Below, in pieces: positions 1-8,774 of a DNA stretch of 22,002 nt. The notes below the pieces were generated by a model. The model did not search any database, was not told where the DNA came from, and saw only the letters and a program-made list of their open reading frames with translations. The position numbers and the translations under genes are program-made. Source of the stretch: a virus; IMG/VR virus record IMGVR_UViG_3300042876_000519, positions 1-22,002 of that record. The stretch is one strand, 5' to 3'. How positions within the stretch are numbered: the first letter of the stretch is position 1; each line of letters starts with the position of its first letter.

Positions 1-42
1 CAGCTCGCCAATGCGAACGGCCGCTTGTTCAGTGGTCGACAT
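1..42 (-). CDS. Possible start of the next leftward gene (partial)
   Basis: An ATG at 42-40 is preceded by GGGAG at 52-48 with a 5-base spacer, which is a good ribosome binding site. The visible product begins MSTTEQAAVRIGEL and then leaves the window. It is in the same frame as copy B of the DUF1566 gene, which has no stop before it, so this could be either a separate gene or the C-terminal part of a fused product. Fourteen residues are too few to name a family. Confidence 0.4.
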   Translation of the reverse strand, partial: MSTTEQAAVRIGEL

Positions 43-474
43 AAAATCTCCCGAAGAAAAGGGATTGAAGGACCAAGCGCTGAGGGGAATCAGGCGGACG
101 GCACGCACACGGGCCTCGTAGCTCGTGGCGTCGCAGTTCTGGCCGCCGTAGCGGAAGTTCTGAATCCAGGCGTAGGCGCCGTCGTCTTCGAGAGCGTCGG
201 CCAGCCAGTGCCAGCACTTGTCGAAGCGGTCGCGCAGCGTGTTGAACAGCAGCAGGCCGGCCTGGCGGTTCGGCAGTTGGGCGCCGTCGCCCAGGCCCTC
301 GGCCCAGGCCTTGGCGGCGGACCAGTTCAGGTCGGAGGCGGGCTTGTCGTCGAGCAGGATGACGGCGCTGCGTTCCCCAAAGGGGGTGCAGATGACGCCG
401 GCGTAGGTGCCGCCGGCCAGCGGCTCGCCGATGTGCGGCAGGGTGGTGGTGGTGGTGGCGATGGGATCGGGCAT
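1..474 (-). CDS. DUF1566/Lcl-type C-type-lectin-like protein, copy B (runs off the left edge)
   Basis: The leftward frame from ATG 474 is open to base 1. It encodes an N-terminal segment with a Thr run, an INLDD-like strand region, and the C-terminal pattern W-x-W, GAYAW, then YEARVRAVR, typical of the DUF1566 (Lcl C-terminal) fold related to C-type lectins. Its 3' part matches the second copy at 1911-2273; the N-terminal half is only loosely similar. The usual stop after the RAVR motif is missing: the frame continues through about 17 more residues and then into an ATG at 42 that has its own ribosome binding site. The molecular role is unknown. Proteins of this fold bind ligands or surfaces, and some are targets of diversity-generating retroelements. 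The fold call is fairly sure, the function is not. Confidence 0.75.
   Translation of the reverse strand, partial: MPDPIATTTTTLPHIGEPLAGGTYAGVICTPFGERSAVILLDDKPASDLNWSAAKAWAEGLGDGAQLPNRQAGLLLFNTLRDRFDKCWHWLADALEDDGAYAWIQNFRYGGQNCDATSYEARVRAVRLIPLSAWSFNPFSSGDFMSTTEQAAVRIGEL
93..183 (-). repeat. Variable-region-like repeat, copy B
   Basis: These 91 bases align without gaps to 1925-2015. About 75 positions are identical, including a 25-base perfect block at the 3' end (93-117 on this strand) and a GC-rich block coding for DGAYAW at the 5' end. Nearly all differences fall in the first two positions of codons ending in C. This is the pattern expected of a DGR variable region followed by an invariant homing-type segment. 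Confidence 0.55.
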
Positions 475-518
475 GAAGCCTCCGGTGTTGCAGCTGGGCT
501 GCGGTGGTGTGAGCCGGC

Positions 519-845
519 TTAACCGCGGCCGGCGAGGGTGATGAGGTAGGGGCGCTGCGGGTGCACCGCGGCCAGGCCGCAGGTGAGGGCGTAGCGGATG
601 GCCTGGGTGGCCATGTCGACGGACGTGGGCGGGTTCAGGCGCAGATCCGTCATGGGGCGGGTGTCCCAGTAGATGCGGCCGTCGGTGATCTCTTTGACGG
701 CGTAGCTCTCGATGTCTTCGACCACTGCGCGGTTCGCGATTTCGAAGGCCAGGTGCACCATCTGGATCTCGGCCGCGGGGTCATGCGGCAGGGAGAAGGG
801 CGCAGAGGGGAGCGGCGCCGGGCTGGCGTCGAGTGGGATCGGCAT
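519..845 (-). CDS. Hypothetical early phage protein, 108 aa
   Basis: The family is not recognised. The start ATG at 845 is preceded by AGGAG with a 5-base spacer, so the start is well supported. The N-terminal 20 residues are rich in Pro and Ala; the rest is a compact mixed alpha/beta sequence with no Cys motif, signal peptide or membrane segment. It sits in the leftward early operon, 44 bases upstream of copy B of the DUF1566 gene and 14 bases after its own upstream neighbour. It is probably a small early accessory or recombination-region protein, but nothing in the sequence shows which. Confidence 0.65.
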   Translation of the reverse strand: MPIPLDASPAPLPSAPFSLPHDPAAEIQMVHLAFEIANRAVVEDIESYAVKEITDGRIYWDTRPMTDLRLNPPTSVDMATQAIRYALTCGLAAVHPQRPYLITLAGRG

Positions 846-859
846 GCTGACTCCTGGGG

Positions 860-1213
860 TTAGTCGTCGTCACCGCCGGCCGCGCGCTTGCGGTCGATCA
901 GTGGCAGTTGGGGAAGGGGCCTTTGCGGCGCGGCGCGCCGTGGCTTGTTGACCTGGCGCCGGGGCCGCTCGATGCGCGGCGCCGGCGGCTCGGCCGGGTG
1001 GGGTGGCTCGGGGGCGATGACCTCGGGCCGGTGGTGAACGCGCTGCTCGGCAAATGGGTCCTGCCCTTCGGCCAGCGCCATGGCGTTCATCCGCACAAGG
1101 CGCCCGTAGAGCGGGTGAGCCAGCGCATCGTCGAGCTGCTCGGGCCAGTCCGCTTTGCGGGCGTGCGTGAACGCGGCTTGCAACTGACCAGGGGTAGGCT
1201 CGATGTGCGGCAT
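860..1213 (-). CDS. Hypothetical early phage protein with Pro/Arg-rich tail, 117 aa
   Basis: The start ATG at 1213 has GAGG seven bases upstream. The first 55 residues look folded (helical, with the sequence PTPGQLQAAFTHARKADWP near the start). The remainder is a basic Pro/Arg-rich low-complexity tail that ends in an acidic GGDDD. Such a basic tail could contact nucleic acid, but that is inference. It lies 9 bases from the Cys-rich gene upstream and 14 from the gene downstream, consistent with one leftward transcript. Other frames through this GC-rich stretch are also open, so it was chosen on ribosome binding site and tight spacing. Confidence 0.6.
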   Translation of the reverse strand: MPHIEPTPGQLQAAFTHARKADWPEQLDDALAHPLYGRLVRMNAMALAEGQDPFAEQRVHHRPEVIAPEPPHPAEPPAPRIERPRRQVNKPRRAAPQRPLPQLPLIDRKRAAGGDDD

Positions 1214-1222
1214 GGCGTGGCC

Positions 1223-1468
1223 TCACGAGGGGAAGGCGAGGTGATGCGCCTCGGGCCCGCAGGGGCCGGTGTTGGCGCGCGCCAGGCGGGTGGGCACGCC
1301 GGCGGGTGGCCTGTCGCGCGAGATCTCGCGGCCGGTGACGTTGGGGCAGATGCACGTTTCGGCATCGCGGCCGCCGGGGCGTGTGGCCGCGCCGGTGGCG
1401 TCGCGCCCGTACTGGCACACGGTGCAACCGCGCACGGGGTATTCATCCCAATGAGCAGGGGCGCGCAT
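1223..1468 (-). CDS. Small Cys-rich, possibly zinc-binding protein, 81 aa
   Basis: The sequence has Cys at residues 15 and 18 (CxxC), 39 and 41 (CxC) and 70, and a His pair at 76-77, enough ligands for a small zinc ribbon-like knuckle. No DNA-binding family is recognised. The start ATG at 1468 is preceded by GGAG with an 8-base spacer. The upstream gene ends only three bases before it, so the two are probably translationally coupled. Zinc binding is inferred from spacing alone. Confidence 0.6.
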   Translation of the reverse strand: MRAPAHWDEYPVRGCTVCQYGRDATGAATRPGGRDAETCICPNVTGREISRDRPPAGVPTRLARANTGPCGPEAHHLAFPS

Positions 1469-1471
1469 GGC

Positions 1472-1678
1472 TCAGGCTCCCACGATCAGGCCGAGCTGGA
1501 GGGCCACGCCGACCAGTGCGCCGCCGAGGGCTATGCCCATCAGCAGCGCCTGGGCAACGCCGGTGCGCCAGCCGTCGAGATAGCCGATTTCGTAGCTGGC
1601 GGGCTCGAAGGGCGGCAAGGTGCCGTCGTTGCTGCCGGCATTGCCCTCGGGCAGGCGTGGGATGCGCGGGCCGCTCAT
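1472..1678 (-). CDS. Small single-pass membrane protein, 68 aa
   Basis: The N-terminal 35 residues are polar and Pro/Gly-rich. They are followed by a long hydrophobic stretch at about residues 41-67 (LLMGIALGGALVGVALQLGL within it) that ends at the C-terminus, so the protein is probably tail-anchored in the inner membrane. Its ATG overlaps the stop of the gene upstream by four bases (ATGA at 1675-1678), which indicates coupling. The role is unknown. Small membrane proteins in early prophage operons are sometimes exclusion proteins, but nothing specific supports that here. Confidence 0.65.
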   Translation of the reverse strand: MSGPRIPRLPEGNAGSNDGTLPPFEPASYEIGYLDGWRTGVAQALLMGIALGGALVGVALQLGLIVGA

Positions 1679-1884
1679 GCCGGCTCACCCACGTGCTGCG
1701 GGACCTGGCGCACGCGTACCACGGCGCACGCGCCGGCGCGCTCCATGGCGTTGATGGCGTGATCGAAGGCCACGCCGCCCTCGATGGTCATTTCGTCGAG
1801 CGAACCGTCGGGACGCTTGATCTGCACGGAGAAGATTCGGCGCGGCGCGCAGGGTTGCGGCTGATGGCAAATGGCTGTGGACAT
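1675..1884 (-). CDS. Hypothetical small protein, 69 aa
   Basis: The start ATG at 1884 has a textbook AGGAGG with a 6-base spacer. The central part (FSVQIKRPDGSLDEMTIEGG, then a helix with DHAINAMERAG) looks like a small alpha/beta fold. The Cys-containing N-terminus (ICHQPQPCAPRR) could bind a metal, but this is uncertain. It begins 26 bases after the stop of DUF1566 copy A and overlaps the membrane-protein gene by four bases. Family not recognised. Confidence 0.65.
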   Translation of the reverse strand: MSTAICHQPQPCAPRRIFSVQIKRPDGSLDEMTIEGGVAFDHAINAMERAGACAVVRVRQVPQHVGEPA

Positions 1885-1910
1885 GGGGACCCTCCTGAAG
1901 GATCAAGGAA

Positions 1911-2273
1911 TCAAGCTGTGACTCGGCGGACGGCACGCACACGGGCCTCATAGCGCGTGTCGTCGTTGAACTGGTTGCCGTCGTCGAAGACCTGGAGCCA
2001 GGCGTAGGCGCCGTCGCTGCCGTAGGCCTCGCTGGACCAGTACCAGGCCGCGTCAAACGCGTCCTTCGCGTTGGCGAACAGCAGGCTCTGCTCGCGCCGC
2101 GTGGGCAGGTCACCGCCGGCTTTGGCGGCCCAGGCTTTTGCTGCGGGCCAGTCCAGACGTTTGGACGGCTTCTTGGCCAGCAGCACGACGTGGTGCGCCA
2201 GCGTGCCGTCGGCGTTGACGATGGCGCCGACATAGCGCTCGCCCTTTTTGAGGGTGACGGGGCACGCGCTCAT
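1911..2273 (-). CDS. DUF1566/Lcl-type C-type-lectin-like protein, copy A, 120 aa
   Basis: This is a complete small DUF1566-type protein. An N-terminal GERYVGAIVNADG strand pair is followed by a W-x-x-A-K-A-W helix, the PTRREQSLLFAN motif, a W-Y-W-S-S core motif, then GAYAW and the closing YEARVRAVR. The length is usual for phage members of this family. Its ATG overlaps the previous stop by four bases. The last third is nearly identical to copy B (1-474), except at C-ending codons that vary freely. That fits a ligand-binding loop set under directed or strong diversifying change. It may be a binding protein exposed on a cell or virion, but its location in the early leftward operon argues against a plain tail protein. 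Confidence 0.8.
   Translation of the reverse strand: MSACPVTLKKGERYVGAIVNADGTLAHHVVLLAKKPSKRLDWPAAKAWAAKAGGDLPTRREQSLLFANAKDAFDAAWYWSSEAYGSDGAYAWLQVFDDGNQFNDDTRYEARVRAVRRVTA
1925..2015 (-). repeat. Variable-region-like repeat, copy A
   Basis: This is the partner of 93-183. The last 25 bases (1925-1949) are identical between copies, and so is the 5' block of about 18 bases. Between them the residue pairs (A/B) are V/N, D/R, D/Y, N/G, F/N, N/C, D/A and R/S, every codon ending in C, with the intervening TTC, GGC, CAG, GAC and ACG codons unchanged. Confidence 0.55.
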
Positions 2274-3455: not shown

Positions 3456-4052
3456 TTACCTCGCTGGCCGTTGTTTCCCCCTTCTGGGGGATATTGCACT
3501 TGAAGGAAGGGCGGTAGATTGAGGCGCCGGGTGAGGCGTCTTGGGCGTTTGCTGAAAATGGCTCGCTCGGCGTTGCGCATCCTGAATCAGCGCTTCGATA
3601 CGGGATAGACCAAGCTGGCTATCGGCGTTGTCGACCAGTTCGGCCATGCGCTGACGGATTTCCGGGCGCATGTCCTCTGGAATGCCAATCAGTAAGGATG
3701 CCAAGTCGCGGAGCGTGCGCGCAATGTGACTAACGGCCGGGTTTGCTGCATACGAAGCAGTCGGCTCCGAGGCTTGAAGTGGGCGTTGCCCGCTTCGAGG
3801 TGGCGATCCCTCTACGCGCACGAGTTCGTCGGCGCTTAACAGCTCCTCGAGCGGGACGCCAAGAGCGCGTGCAAGCGCCGGAGCGAACTTCGACCTGCTG
3901 CTATCGCGATTCTCCAAAGCGCTGATCGTTCCGACATCAACGTCGGACTCAGCCGCTAACCTTTCAAGAGTCCACCCTCGTTGCAGCCGCAAGGCGCGGA
4001 TGCGTGCTCCCAGTGCCATCCTGGCACGGTAGACGGCCGTTGAGCGTTTCAC
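3456..4052 (-). CDS. CI-like prophage repressor, XRE family, 198 aa
   Basis: Residues about 16-72 form a helix-turn-helix of the XRE/Cro type (GWTLERLAAESDVDVGTISA, then LENR). The rest is a Pro/Ser linker, a helical segment around 105-165, and a basic tail. There is no S24 peptidase domain, so RecA-driven self-cleavage as in lambda CI is not expected; induction must work otherwise. The start is GTG 4052, with AGGTG upstream at a suitable distance. An ATG at 4019 is possible but has no spaced site. It is divergent from the YdaS/Cro-like gene with an operator between them, which is the main argument for the repressor role. Confidence 0.8.
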   Translation of the reverse strand: MKRSTAVYRARMALGARIRALRLQRGWTLERLAAESDVDVGTISALENRDSSRSKFAPALARALGVPLEELLSADELVRVEGSPPRSGQRPLQASEPTASYAANPAVSHIARTLRDLASLLIGIPEDMRPEIRQRMAELVDNADSQLGLSRIEALIQDAQRRASHFQQTPKTPHPAPQSTALPSSAISPRRGKQRPAR

Positions 4053-4099: not shown

Positions 4100-4399
4100 A
4101 TGAATGCAATCCAAACGGCGATTGAACGGTCGGGTGGGCCAACGAAAGTGGCCTCGGCGCTTCAGGTGTCGGTGCAAGCGGTCTGCTTTTGGCGAGACGG
4201 GAAGCGCCGTATGCCAACCGAGCACATTGCCGAGCTTGAGCGCCTGAGTGGCGGCAGTGTTCGGCGTTGGGAGATGCGCCCAGATGACTGGCACCTGATC
4301 TGGCCTGAGTTGGCAGGCACGCCGGGGGCGCCCGAACTGCCGGCCAACGGAGGTTGGCAAGCCCCTGCCGGCTCATCCCCCACCGCGGAGGCGGCGTGA
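4100..4399 (+). CDS. YdaS/Cro-like antirepressor regulator, 99 aa
   Basis: The N-terminal residues 1-55 (MNAIQTAIERSGGPTKVASA, then QVSVQAVCFWRDGKRRMPTEH and the following helix) fit the YdaS_antitoxin/Cro-superfamily helix-turn-helix. This family occupies the Cro position in many prophages, repressing the lysogeny promoter and favouring lytic growth. The C-terminal 40 residues are a Pro/Gly-rich tail, perhaps disordered. No Shine-Dalgarno sequence precedes the ATG, and the predicted transcription start is one or two bases upstream, so the message may be leaderless. The stop overlaps the next start by one base. Confidence 0.85.
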   Translation: MNAIQTAIERSGGPTKVASALQVSVQAVCFWRDGKRRMPTEHIAELERLSGGSVRRWEMRPDDWHLIWPELAGTPGAPELPANGGWQAPAGSSPTAEAA

Positions 4400-5005: not shown

Positions 5006-5374
5006 ATGATGTTTCCCAATGACGCTGACCAGGCCCGCCTGGCGCTGGTGGGTGGTGTCATCCAGGCGCAGCGCCTGGTGGTGCCGCCTCAGGTGGTGAT
5101 GGGCATCAAGAGCTATCGGCATGCATGCCGACTGGCGTGGAAGCTGCGCCAGGTGCGCAACTTGACGCGCCGGTCGCTGGCAGAGCAGTGCGGGCTCTAC
5201 ACCAGCCACGTCTCCGATTACTTCAGCATGCACGAGCATCGGCGCGAGCTGCCGGCCCGGCATGTGGCGGCCGTCGAGCGTGTGCTCGGCAATGCGGTGA
5301 TCTCGCAGTGGCTGGCGCAGCAGGCCCAGCTCACGGTGCTCGAGGAAATGCAGGCCGCGCGGAGGGCTGCGTGA
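5006..5374 (+). CDS. HTH regulator in the CII position, 122 aa
   Basis: Residues about 40-75 contain a helix-turn-helix (LAWKLRQVRNLTRRSLAEQC then GLYTSHVSDYF), and the C-terminal third is helical. The start is ATG 5006 or the next codon 5009; only a weak GGGT-type site precedes them. The gene lies between the tR1-like terminator and the replication genes, where lambdoid phages carry CII or another activator. A direct match to CII is not visible, so the role is inferred from the fold and position. Its stop overlaps the next start. Confidence 0.65.
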   Translation: MMFPNDADQARLALVGGVIQAQRLVVPPQVVMGIKSYRHACRLAWKLRQVRNLTRRSLAEQCGLYTSHVSDYFSMHEHRRELPARHVAAVERVLGNAVISQWLAQQAQLTVLEEMQAARRAA

Positions 5375-5790
5375 TGGTGTCGCTGATCGAACGCGCGCCA
5401 GTGCGCAGCGCCGCGGTAGCGCTGATCAAGGTGCTGTTGCGCGAGGCGGGCTTGCGGGTGAGCGACCTGGTGCCGCCGCCCGAGGCGAAGGGCGAGCAGG
5501 CCGGCGTGGCCGCGCCCGTTTTGCACGCCTCGCGTCAACTGGTAACCCCCGCGCCGGCAAAGCCGCCGAGGGTGCACAAGCCGCCGGCGTGGGGCATCGA
5601 GCGGGCGGCGCCCATCCCTGGCGTGGTGGCGCCCAAGATCGGCTTGAAGGGCGGCGGGGAGGTCGTCGTCCCGCCCGACGTGAAGGTCACCCAGTGCCCA
5701 TCGGGGCGTGACACGCGCTACACGGTCGAGGGGCCGGTGGTGGGCGAGTTCACCCGCGAATGGCAGGCCAGGCGTGGAGGTAAGTGCTGA
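5374..5790 (+). CDS. Hypothetical protein with Pro-rich middle, 138 aa
   Basis: The start ATG at 5374 shares its first base with the stop of the HTH gene. An N-terminal helix (residues 1-32, SAAVALIKVLLREAGLRVSD) leads into a Pro/Ala/Lys-rich disordered linker, then a small C-terminal beta-rich domain with a KVTQCPSGRDTRYTVEGP strand pattern. This latter motif recurs in phage replication-region proteins, but no activity is known to me. Its stop overlaps the next start by one base, so the block 5006-6101 behaves as one coupled transcript. Confidence 0.65.
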   Translation: MVSLIERAPVRSAAVALIKVLLREAGLRVSDLVPPPEAKGEQAGVAAPVLHASRQLVTPAPAKPPRVHKPPAWGIERAAPIPGVVAPKIGLKGGGEVVVPPDVKVTQCPSGRDTRYTVEGPVVGEFTREWQARRGGKC

Positions 5791-6101
5791 TGCGACCGCG
5801 CGGCGAGGTGCGCTCGGCGATTGCCGAGGCGACGCAGCAGCTGGCCCAGCAGCAGGTGCTGCCCACATGGCGCGACCTGGTCGCCATGGTGCCAGGCATC
5901 AGCTCGACGAGCCCAGCCGACCTGCGCCTGGTACGCAAGACGGTGGAAAACATGGCCCTGGCGGGCGAGCTGGAGCGCGCCGGCAATCGGCACGTGCAGG
6001 GCGTAGCCAGGCCGATGACGACATACCGCCCGCGCAGCAATAGCTGGGTCCATGGGACGGCCCAGCTCGATGGCGTGGTGCGGGGCTGGCGAACAGCCTG
6101 A
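5790..6101 (+). CDS. Small winged-helix-like replication-region protein, 103 aa
   Basis: The start ATG at 5790 overlaps the previous stop. The helical pattern of residues 1-70 (RSAIAEATQQLAQQQVLPTW, then RDLVAMV and RKTVENMALAGELERAG) resembles a winged helix, with a final turn that reads like a wing. It may bind DNA near the origin or help load the adjacent primase-helicase, but this is inferred from fold and location only. The C-terminal 30 residues are polar and likely flexible. A 30-base gap follows. Confidence 0.6.
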   Translation: MRPRGEVRSAIAEATQQLAQQQVLPTWRDLVAMVPGISSTSPADLRLVRKTVENMALAGELERAGNRHVQGVARPMTTYRPRSNSWVHGTAQLDGVVRGWRTA

Positions 6102-6131
6102 CGCGCACCGAGAAGTAGAAAGCGAGGAGCA

Positions 6132-8525
6132 ATGCCGGAGTGGGGTTCCGAGAAACAGGCTCGGTGCGACAAGCTGCGCACCTTGCCGCAGGCCATGCGC
6201 GAGAAGCGCCAGTGGCTGCTGTGGCGGTTCATCGCCGACCCGAAGGTGCCGAAGCCGCGCAAGGTGCCGCACTACGTGTCGGGCCGAAAGCGCCGCGGTG
6301 CGCAGGGCAGTGTGGAGGATCGGCAGGAACTGTCGACGTTCGATGTGGCGCTGACGGAGTTCGCGCGCGGCCAGTGGGACGGCCTGGGCTTCGCGTTCCT
6401 GCCGGGCGATGGCCTGATCGGCATCGACATGGATGGCCAGGTCGACGAGGAAACCGGCGAGATCTCGGAGCGGTGCAAGGCCATCGTGGCCGCGTGCGGC
6501 AGCTACACCGAGTGGAGCCCGTCACGCAAGGGCGTGCACATCATCGTCGCCGGCGAAACGAAGACGTTCAAGGACAACAGCATCGGGCTGGAGGTCTTCT
6601 GCAACGCGCAGTTCTTCACCTGCACCGGCGAGCACTGGGAGGCCACGCCGTTCGAGGTGGCGCCGATCGACGAACGCACGCTGAGCCGGCTCAAGGCGAC
6701 GGTGGCGCAGGCCCGGGAAAAGGGCAAGGGCACCGGCGACGCGCAGCCAGTGCAGGCGCCTGCACCAGCGAAGGCGGCGAAGGCCGACGACTATGGGCGC
6801 GTCAACGATGTGGCGATGCAGCAGCTGGATGTGTGGGTGCCCGCACTGTTCCCGGCGGCGAAGAAGCAATCCGGCACGGGCGCCTGGCGCATCAGTTCGA
6901 AAGACCTGAATCGCAGCCTCGAGGAGGATCTATCAATTGCGCCCGGCGGCATCGTGGACTTTGGCATTCGCGAGGCGGATGCGCGCGAGGGCCGCAGAAC
7001 GCCGATCGACCTGGTGGTTGAGTATCAGGGCGTCAAGCCACGCGATGCGCTGATGTGGCTGGCTGGTCGGCTGGGCGTGGCCTTGACGCCGCGCCCGCAG
7101 AAGGCGAAGCCGAAGGACGACGCGCCGCCCGCCAGTGGGGCGGACACCCCTTCGCCGGGCTCCGCCGGGGAAGGGGAAGGCGGCGAGCCGCCGCCGCGCG
7201 GGCGGCGGGACTGGCGCGAGGATCTGCTAAGGCAGAACGGCGGCAAGAAGGATTGCCGCGAGAACGTGTACATGGTGCTCATCAACCACCCGAAGCTGGC
7301 GGGGCTGGTGGGCTATGACGAGTTCGGGCACCGGGTGATGAAGCTGCGAAAGCCGCCCTGGGATTCGGACGTGGGCGAGTGGACGACCAACGACGATTAC
7401 CTGCTCGGCTATTGGCTGTCGATGCAGGAGCGCTTGGTCATCAAGGCCGAAGGCACGATCGTGGCCGGCGTGGCCATGGCGGCGTATGCCAACCGGTTCC
7501 ACCCTGTGCATGAGTACCTGCATGGTCTGCCAGAGTGGGATGGCACCGAGCGCCTGGCGCATTGGCTGTCGGACTGCCTGGGCGCAGAGGACAGCGAATA
7601 CACACGCCTGGTGGGCGCATGGTTCCTCATGGGCATGGTCAAGCGCATCCTGACGCCTGGCTGCCAGATGGACTACATGGTGGTGCTGGAGGGCCTGCAG
7701 GGCAAACAGAAGTCCACCGCGTTGCGCACCTTGGTGGGCAACGACGACTGGTTCGCTGATACGCCGATACGCATTGGCGACAAGGACGCGGTGCTCAGCC
7801 TGGCCGGCAAGTGGCTGTATGAGGTGGGCGAGCTGGACGCGTTCAACCGCGCCGAGGTGACGGCCGTCAAACAGTACGTGTCGAGCCGAATCGACCGGGT
7901 GCGTGAGCCTTTTGCGCGCCGGCCAAGCGACCGCCCGCGCAGCGGGGTGTTCGCGGGGTCGACCAACCAGTCGGAGTACTTCAAGGACCCGACGGGCGCA
8001 CGGCGCTTCTGGCCAGTGGCATGCGATGGCGAGATCCAGCTCGAGCTGCTGGCGAATGTGCGCGATCAGCTGTTCGCCGAGGCGATGCATCGGCTGGCGA
8101 GCGATGACCTGGAAGTGCGGCGCTATTGGCCCACTCGGGAGGAGACCGACAAGTACCTGGTGCCTCAGCAGGAGCGCCGGGAGATCGTCGACCCGTGGTA
8201 CGAGCGCCTGGCCATCTGGCTGGACCTGCGCGAGGTCTACGGCGATTCGGGCGAGCAGATCTGTGATGTGGAGCACTTCACGTCGCACGAGCTGCTCACC
8301 AAGGCGCTGCATGTGCCGACGGATCGGATCGATGGCAGCAGGCAGATGGCCACGCGGGTGGGCATTGCCATGCACAAGCTGGGCTGGGAGAAGCGGCGCG
8401 ACGCTACGGGCGCGCGCCTGCATCGGTACTGGCGGCCCGGTAAGAAGCGTCCAGCAATGGAAGCCCAAGCTGCACCCCACGAGGTGCGGCCGGATGGCGT
8501 TCCCGAGGAGCTTTACGGTGCATAG
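6132..8525 (+). CDS. Primase-polymerase/VapE-like helicase replication protein, 797 aa
   Basis: The N-terminal domain has archaeo-eukaryotic primase motifs: IDMDG with Asp 99 and 101 (motif I), SRKGVHI with His 136 (motif II) and LEVFC near 153-157 (motif III). A helical middle and a low-complexity Pro/Gly linker (about 325-360) follow. The C-terminal half is a VapE/VirE-type P-loop helicase: Walker A GLQGKQKST (521-529), hydrophobic WLYEVGEL (561-568) as Walker B, and an Arg-rich sensor region near 585-597. It should prime and unwind at the phage origin. The start at 6132 has GAGGAG nearby. The repeat array immediately downstream suggests it is the initiator's partner or the initiator itself. 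Confidence 0.9.
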   Translation: MPEWGSEKQARCDKLRTLPQAMREKRQWLLWRFIADPKVPKPRKVPHYVSGRKRRGAQGSVEDRQELSTFDVALTEFARGQWDGLGFAFLPGDGLIGIDMDGQVDEETGEISERCKAIVAACGSYTEWSPSRKGVHIIVAGETKTFKDNSIGLEVFCNAQFFTCTGEHWEATPFEVAPIDERTLSRLKATVAQAREKGKGTGDAQPVQAPAPAKAAKADDYGRVNDVAMQQLDVWVPALFPAAKKQSGTGAWRISSKDLNRSLEEDLSIAPGGIVDFGIREADAREGRRTPIDLVVEYQGVKPRDALMWLAGRLGVALTPRPQKAKPKDDAPPASGADTPSPGSAGEGEGGEPPPRGRRDWREDLLRQNGGKKDCRENVYMVLINHPKLAGLVGYDEFGHRVMKLRKPPWDSDVGEWTTNDDYLLGYWLSMQERLVIKAEGTIVAGVAMAAYANRFHPVHEYLHGLPEWDGTERLAHWLSDCLGAEDSEYTRLVGAWFLMGMVKRILTPGCQMDYMVVLEGLQGKQKSTALRTLVGNDDWFADTPIRIGDKDAVLSLAGKWLYEVGELDAFNRAEVTAVKQYVSSRIDRVREPFARRPSDRPRSGVFAGSTNQSEYFKDPTGARRFWPVACDGEIQLELLANVRDQLFAEAMHRLASDDLEVRRYWPTREETDKYLVPQQERREIVDPWYERLAIWLDLREVYGDSGEQICDVEHFTSHELLTKALHVPTDRIDGSRQMATRVGIAMHKLGWEKRRDATGARLHRYWRPGKKRPAMEAQAAPHEVRPDGVPEELYGA
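7147..7176. repeat. Palindromic insert in the primase linker
   Basis: Arms 7147-7158 and 7165-7176 pair at eleven of twelve positions around a 6-base loop, within the codons of the low-complexity linker between the primase and helicase domains. It looks like a short GC-rich palindrome tolerated in frame. Confidence 0.5.
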
Positions 8526-8774
8526 GCGTCCAAAGTCCAACCTCGTCCAACCTACCCCGCAGAGGTTGGACGGATGGCCGAATCACCGGGCGTCAGGCCC
8601 GGGCGTCCAACCTCGTCCAACCTGCGCCCTGGGTCACGTGCGCGTGTGTGCGTGCGGACGTGCGGGCGCCCCTGCGCCCCCGCGTGTGTGCGTACGTGGG
8701 CGCAGGCCGGTTGGACGAGGTTGGACGGTTGGACGGAATAGCAACGAGGTTGGACGAATCCAGGAGGGGCGGCG
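8526..8774. repeat. GTCCAACC/GGTTGGAC iteron-like array, candidate replication origin
   Basis: There is no gene here. Four copies of GTCCAACC (8535, 8545, 8605, 8615) and five of its complement GGTTGGAC (8564, 8709, 8719, 8727, 8748) fill the gap after the primase-helicase gene; partial copies lie at 8528 and 8785. Tandem copies start 10 bases apart in three pairs. The array forms nested inverted repeats. It resembles P4-type origins, where iterons in both orientations are bound by the primase-helicase protein. A regulatory binding array is the alternative. Confidence 0.65.
8604..8727. repeat. Long inverted repeat with GT-rich loop
   Basis: CGTCCAACCTCGTCCAACC (8604-8622) is a perfect 19-base inverted repeat of 8709-8727. 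The pairing extends inward with CCTGCGCCC (8621-8629) and GGGCGCAGG (8698-8706), leaving a 4-base offset. The loop contains CGCGTGTGTGCGT twice (8641 and 8681), 40 bases apart. Confidence 0.7.

Follow-up and report, generated by a model that had tools for sequence, protein, structure and literature searches.

Genes at the locus

The stretch of DNA analysed here (the window) comprises the 22,002 bases of the virus record IMGVR_UViG_3300042876_000519, which is cut at base 1 and belongs to a temperate, lambda-like tailed phage. The proteins encoded on its plus strand include a capsid protein, a terminase of the GpA type, a portal of the lambda family and a replication protein resembling VapE. Its minus strand encodes a CI-like repressor followed by a run of small genes, among them two genes for lectin-like proteins, B and A (Table 1). 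Gene A showed no stop codon before the window edge, its stop lying outside the record. Near its end (window 1-474, minus strand) there is an in-frame ATG with a GGAGA ribosome-binding-like site at about 42, and A may be fused to or overlap with the next gene. At 8535-8727, just past the end of the VapE-like gene, the window further contains GTCCAACCTC repeats in direct and inverted orientation.

Table 1. Positions of genes, repeats and RNAs in the window and in related records
Feature	Record	Position	Strand	Remark
Lectin-like target gene A	window	67..474	-	ATG at 474; frame open up to window edge
Variable repeat of A (core)	window	97..180	-	from comparison with the L048 template
Conserved GC-rich 3' end of A repeat	window	93..117	-	identical in A, B and template
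Lectin-like target gene B	window	1911..2273	-	120 aa; Lcl_C-like; predicted C-type-lectin fold
Variable repeat of B (core)	window	1929..2012	-	from comparison with the L048 template
Conserved GC-rich 3' end of B repeat	window	1925..1949	-	identical in A, B and template
CI-like HTH repressor	window	3456..4052	-	lysogeny/early switch marker; A and B downstream on same strand
Cro/YdaS-like divergent regulator	window	4100..4399	+	
Avd	L048	207-566		
RT-15 RNA	L048	557-754		
Open frame of reverse transcriptase gene	L048	570-1925		
Template repeat	L048	752-835		
RT-15 RNA	L002	31780-31962	-	
RT-15 RNA	L156	9724-9915		
RT-15 RNA	L162	14559-14751	-	

A repeat shared by genes A and B

The preliminary description of this DNA had aligned bases 93-183 in A with 1925-2015 in B, and a codon alignment on the minus strand returned 91 gap-free positions for the two. 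All of its counts were reproduced in this alignment: 16 differences, of which 14 fall at codon positions 1 or 2 (these 14 in nine codons), eight variable codons of the form NNC in both copies, and 12 differences that involve an A in one copy. The 25-base block reported as identical reads GAGGCCCGTGTGCGTGCCGTCCGCC in both genes. An independent repeat search likewise found this pair to be the longest direct repeat of the window. Within the 28-codon repeat, A and B differ by nine amino-acid codon changes and one synonymous-only change, and the other 91 aligned codons hold 55 and 12 such changes, respectively. Because of this difference the N-terminal parts of A and B look like old relatives, and the repeat gives the impression of a copy that was shared more recently and altered selectively. 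The pattern seen in the two repeats exceeds what shared ancestry and GC codon bias account for.

The assignment of both genes to DUF1566 held in part. Protein B matches this family (PF07603, now Lcl_C) at 26.6 bits, which is under the gathering cut-off of 34.9 bits that neither A nor B reaches, and A alone gave no Pfam match. Among 100 aligned relatives, 77 match PF07603 at E <= 1e-3.

Template, Avd and reverse transcriptase in close relatives

Diversity-generating retroelements (DGRs) are known systems for the targeted mutation of particular codons. We searched the whole window record for a reverse transcriptase (RT) and found none, the record stopping short of the place where one is expected. 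Two further IMG/VR records were informative. The first, L005 (IMGVR 3300042876_001174), shares 83-87% identity with the window in the left part of the latter. The second, L048 (IMGVR 3300042876_000561), was found by a pattern built from the inferred templates and that of Burkholderia phage Magia, and comes by name from the same metagenome as L005; that both derive from one phage is not proven. L048 contains the end of a third lectin gene, Avd, an RT-15 RNA, a template repeat (TR), a DGR-type RT and an integrase, in this order. Its Avd matches PF22296 (E 1.5e-11) and the PHROG 'Avd protein of DGR' (1.9e-23), and its RT matches PF00078 (E 1.6e-13) with IGNLSSQ and YVDD motifs in the translation. 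The open frame of the RT encloses the TR, which has AAT or AAC codons at the variable positions and carries the same 25-base block as A and B. The template rich in AAC codons, the RT and the Avd that had been predicted are therefore all present in a relative, with AAT beside AAC in its TR. The integrase of L048 (4148-5239) adjoins a tRNA-Ser (CGA) gene and is followed by a long helicase-like ORF (5302-7914); the ORF looks chromosomal, and this is likely the attachment site.

Compared with the TR of L048, the variable repeat (VR) of A has ten mismatches at template adenines and none elsewhere, and that of B has ten at adenines and two others, both of them third-position T/C. The corresponding repeats of the L005 orthologues A' and B' show nine and eleven adenine mismatches, and the third VR of L048 shows ten against its own TR, all three with no non-A mismatch. 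Two C/T differences between A and B had been listed as a difficulty for adenine-specific change; both are real third-position differences, and both are departures of B from the TR, A having none. Altogether 14 of the 16 differences between A and B fall on the adenines of the TR, which make up 24 of its 84 positions (hypergeometric p = 5.6e-8). The 25-base block is identical in A, B, A', B', the third VR of L048 and the TR, and it lies where an initiation-of-homing sequence would be expected.

The comparison between strains pointed in the same direction. Gene A is 83% identical to A', and over the last ~240 bases (from about base 256 of the alignment) the two genes show nine differences, all within the repeat. 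All nine fall on TR adenines (24 of 84 positions adenine; p = 3.6e-6) and none in the flanks, despite a divergence between the window and L005 of ~13% across the neighbouring 1.6 kb. The repeats of A' and B' differ from those of the window at template adenines, save at the two third-position sites where B departs from the TR. Adenine-confined differences between strains, which the preliminary description had predicted, are thus seen within the repeats of both genes, and the sequence comparison of A with A' implies that A has been diversified in the past.

L005 ends, like the window, before the expected place of an RT, and a search of its record for this gene found none. When the last bases of gene A were used to search for sequence left of base 1, L005 alone was matched. 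The two diverged contigs stop at the same base (window base 1 and L005:9216) with the frame still open, and this shared end is probably an assembly branch point where the strains become identical.

Distribution of related loci

A tblastn search with B found Burkholderia phage Magia and Shewanella phage vB_Sb_QDWS. An RT is annotated in both, and Magia further has an annotated Avd and lectins labelled 'possible DGR target'. Used as positive controls, these phages each yielded one TR and three VRs, in which 8-16 template adenines and 0-1 other positions are mismatched, and the codons of the TR (W Y Q N F N N G N Q N N N) align with the variable codons of A and B. A 30-base TR pattern matched at least 120 IMG/VR virus contigs. 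Our survey set consisted of 124 loci, taken from the matches listed together with the controls; two of the loci are sub-stretches of the controls. Among the matches listed, an RT was present in 122, an Avd in 116 and at least one VR in 110 of the 124 loci. Since the TR pattern asked for neither RT nor Avd, the presence of these genes is independent support. Mismatches between VR and TR in the 124 loci, again among the matches listed, numbered 2,320 at TR adenines and 34 elsewhere, in a set that is not an unbiased sample because the pattern required an adenine-rich template.

With the RT of L048 as query 32 loci were found, mainly of Burkholderiales and Pseudomonas, and 31 of them had a TR and two or three VRs. 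In bacterial genomes, homologues of A carry a VR and have Avd, TR and RT as neighbours, and those in G004, G151, G214 and G383 are DGR targets. The genes are usually arranged as lectin-lectin-Avd-TR-RT, and a third target is often found further upstream. This arrangement agrees with a position of A and B upstream of a cassette that is cut off by the end of the record. A protein scan of IMG/VR with B returned one distant locus, and a profile search of genome contigs with the lectin alignment gave no confirmed loci.

A and B as targets of one DGR

Based on the TR, Avd and RT of the relatives and on the confinement of mismatches to adenines, we conclude with high confidence that one DGR of a lambda-like temperate phage targets both A and B. 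Against this conclusion count the lack of an RT in the window and L005 records, both of which end before its expected place, the two non-adenine differences of B, the related lectin loci in which no RT was detected, and the missing hairpin after the VRs of A and B. By analogy with L048, the TR, Avd and RT of the window phage are predicted to lie just beyond base 1 and in the same order. We infer that the cassette is present in this phage and that it is currently active. If the system works as in BPP-1 and other characterised DGRs, the TR would be transcribed into an RNA that the RT together with Avd would copy, misreading adenines, and the mutated cDNA would replace the 3' end (VR) of each lectin gene at the shared GC-rich block. 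This would rewrite some nine codons derived from AAY in a small C-type-lectin-like protein and spare the scaffold.

We consider it very unlikely that A and B are orphan targets, diversified by the DGR of an ancestor, with the RT since lost or located elsewhere in the host. Such a history would agree with the missing RT of the window record and with the existence of lectin loci in which no RT was detected. Among these, L006, a relative, has an A-like lectin (6279-6695) and a search of its record for an RT found none, and L181 (9784-13129) has three lectins and an Avd, a search for an RT there likewise finding none. It is possible that the machinery is lost and orphan targets are left behind in this group, as L006 and L181 might indicate. 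Against a relic speak the intact 25-base block of the window, the complete lack of non-A changes in the VR of A relative to the template of L048, and the change of this VR at nine sites, with none in the flanks, relative to L005. Gene duplication without any retroelement, in a genome of GC-ending codons and with strong diversifying selection (or gene conversion) acting on the codons that bind the ligand, would account for the third-position C of the changed codons through codon bias and would be in line with the tolerance of C-type-lectin folds for variation, but it can practically be dismissed, as a relative with RT and Avd has a template whose adenines predict the variable positions and mismatches are so strongly biased toward these adenines (2,320 against 34 among the matches listed).

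Properties of the target proteins

An AlphaFold2 model of B, built from an alignment of 95 targets, reached a pLDDT of 96.3. When the model was used in a fold search, the best PDB match was the C-terminal domain of Legionella Lcl (8q4e, TM 0.70), followed by many C-type lectins; a phmmer search of B against the PDB gave no match. On the basis of the model, B is predicted with high confidence to adopt a C-type-lectin fold, and its VR lies in the last quarter of the protein. Among the matches listed, the 229 targets not cut by a contig edge had a median length of 154 aa, and a hydrophobic N-terminus was indicated in three of them by a crude hydropathy test.

Seven deposited phages (Magia, QDWS, Cruim01, Haboob, LPPA56, phPA-G and SC_8) encode two to three targets each, and all of their VRs are in small ORFs or in unannotated stretches of similar size. 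In six of the seven the targets clearly lie in a leftward early operon, between the CI-like repressor side and the integrase; the annotation of SC_8 is too sparse for this placement. No VR was found in tail or other structural genes in the stretches scanned, which covered 20,000-55,699 of Cruim01 and all or nearly all of the other genomes, except the last 4.8 kb of phPA-G. Three loci with the same TR motif (L053, L085 and L109, among the matches listed) carry the repeat on long tail-fibre-like proteins of 524-676 aa.

A hairpin downstream of the VR has been described for the BPP-1 DGR and is not a defining feature of all DGRs. Downstream of the VRs of A and B no stable DNA hairpin was found (z -0.13 and 1.12), and a stable one follows the third VR of L048 (z -2.79).

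Possible functions of the early lectins

The usual explanation of phage DGRs is a switch of tropism through the tail fibre. This explanation does not fit directly here, as the structural genes of the deposited phages are without the repeat in the stretches scanned. The targets are small lectins without signal peptides that are encoded in a leftward early operon, and they might perhaps recognise a variable intracellular partner or join the virion in trans; these two readings have similar odds.

One tentative reading gives the early lectins a part in counter-defence or superinfection immunity, with variable partners bound inside the cell. The placement between repressor and integrase that is clear in six of the seven deposited phages argues for it, as does the rarity of hydrophobic N-termini (3 of 229 targets by the crude test, among the matches listed). 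Signal peptides are, however, missing from phage structural proteins too, and the minority of loci with the repeat on long tail-fibre-like proteins does not agree with this function. It is also conceivable, and we hold it no more firmly, that the lectins are adhesins attached to the virion in trans and that the DGR tunes host adsorption, for which BPP-1 is the precedent. The long N-termini that are fused to family members in L053, L085 and L109 would be consistent with such a role, and many viral DGR targets are tail proteins (PMC8144416). Against it stand the lack of VRs in the structural genes of the phage stretches scanned, the early rather than late position of the genes, and the fact that no tail-attachment domain was seen.

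Rather unlikely as a whole is the proposal that in widespread temperate phages of Burkholderiales and Pseudomonas one DGR diversifies two to four small free-standing early lectins that act in the infected cell or lysogen, as a recognition repertoire that evolves against rival phages or the defences of the host, and not on the virion. Since members of the group occur in deposited phages of culturable Burkholderia and Pseudomonas, a gene-removal test of function is feasible.

Comparison with known systems

Phages Magia (NC_070954) and vB_Sb_QDWS (OK094664) share with the window small Lcl-like lectin targets, which are about 50% identical to B; they have three VRs per TR and the order lectin-lectin-Avd-TR-RT in an early operon. 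They differ from the window phage in backbone and TR sequence, and the cassette is missing from the window record. Bordetella phage BPP-1 (mtd/avd/TR/brt), on which the mechanism is modelled by analogy, is similar in adenine-specific VR/TR differences and C-type-lectin target and, judged by the cassette of L048, in RT family and Avd; it differs in having one target, a tail protein, in place of several small early proteins. The C-terminal domain of Legionella pneumophila Lcl (PDB 8q4e), a bacterial surface adhesin, resembles B in fold (TM 0.70) and family (PF07603).

The DGR targets of the window belong to the known multi-target DUF1566/Lcl DGRs of Proteobacteria. According to the passages that describe them, the G2/G4 cassettes of Proteobacterial multi-VR DGRs also have several target ORFs per TR and the DUF1566/Lcl fold (PMC6642488), and multiple-VR DGRs have been listed for Burkholderia, Ralstonia and Collimonas (PMC3521204). 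These passages of the two surveys deal with bacterial genomes and do not discuss position in phage genomes. Phage DGRs with two targets have been described (PMC10743442), and in the largest survey the viral targets of three major DGR clades were mostly tail proteins (PMC8144416). The targets found here are small early proteins, several per template, unlike the usual picture of tail tropism. This early-region, several-target habit and the link to RT-15 may be the parts of the system that deserve attention.

RT-15 RNA and the template

The Rfam RNA RT-15 (RF03018) was found between Avd and TR, directly 5' of the TR. In L048, Magia, Pseudacidovorax and Cruim01 no more than a few bases lie between its end and the TR start, and it was present in 18 of 20 further TR loci. 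RT-15 appears to be the 5' part (leader) of the template RNA in this group of DGRs, which would apparently explain this orphan Rfam RNA. In 113 of 121 loci, among the matches listed, the RT frame is already open upstream of the TR, and the RT may therefore start there.
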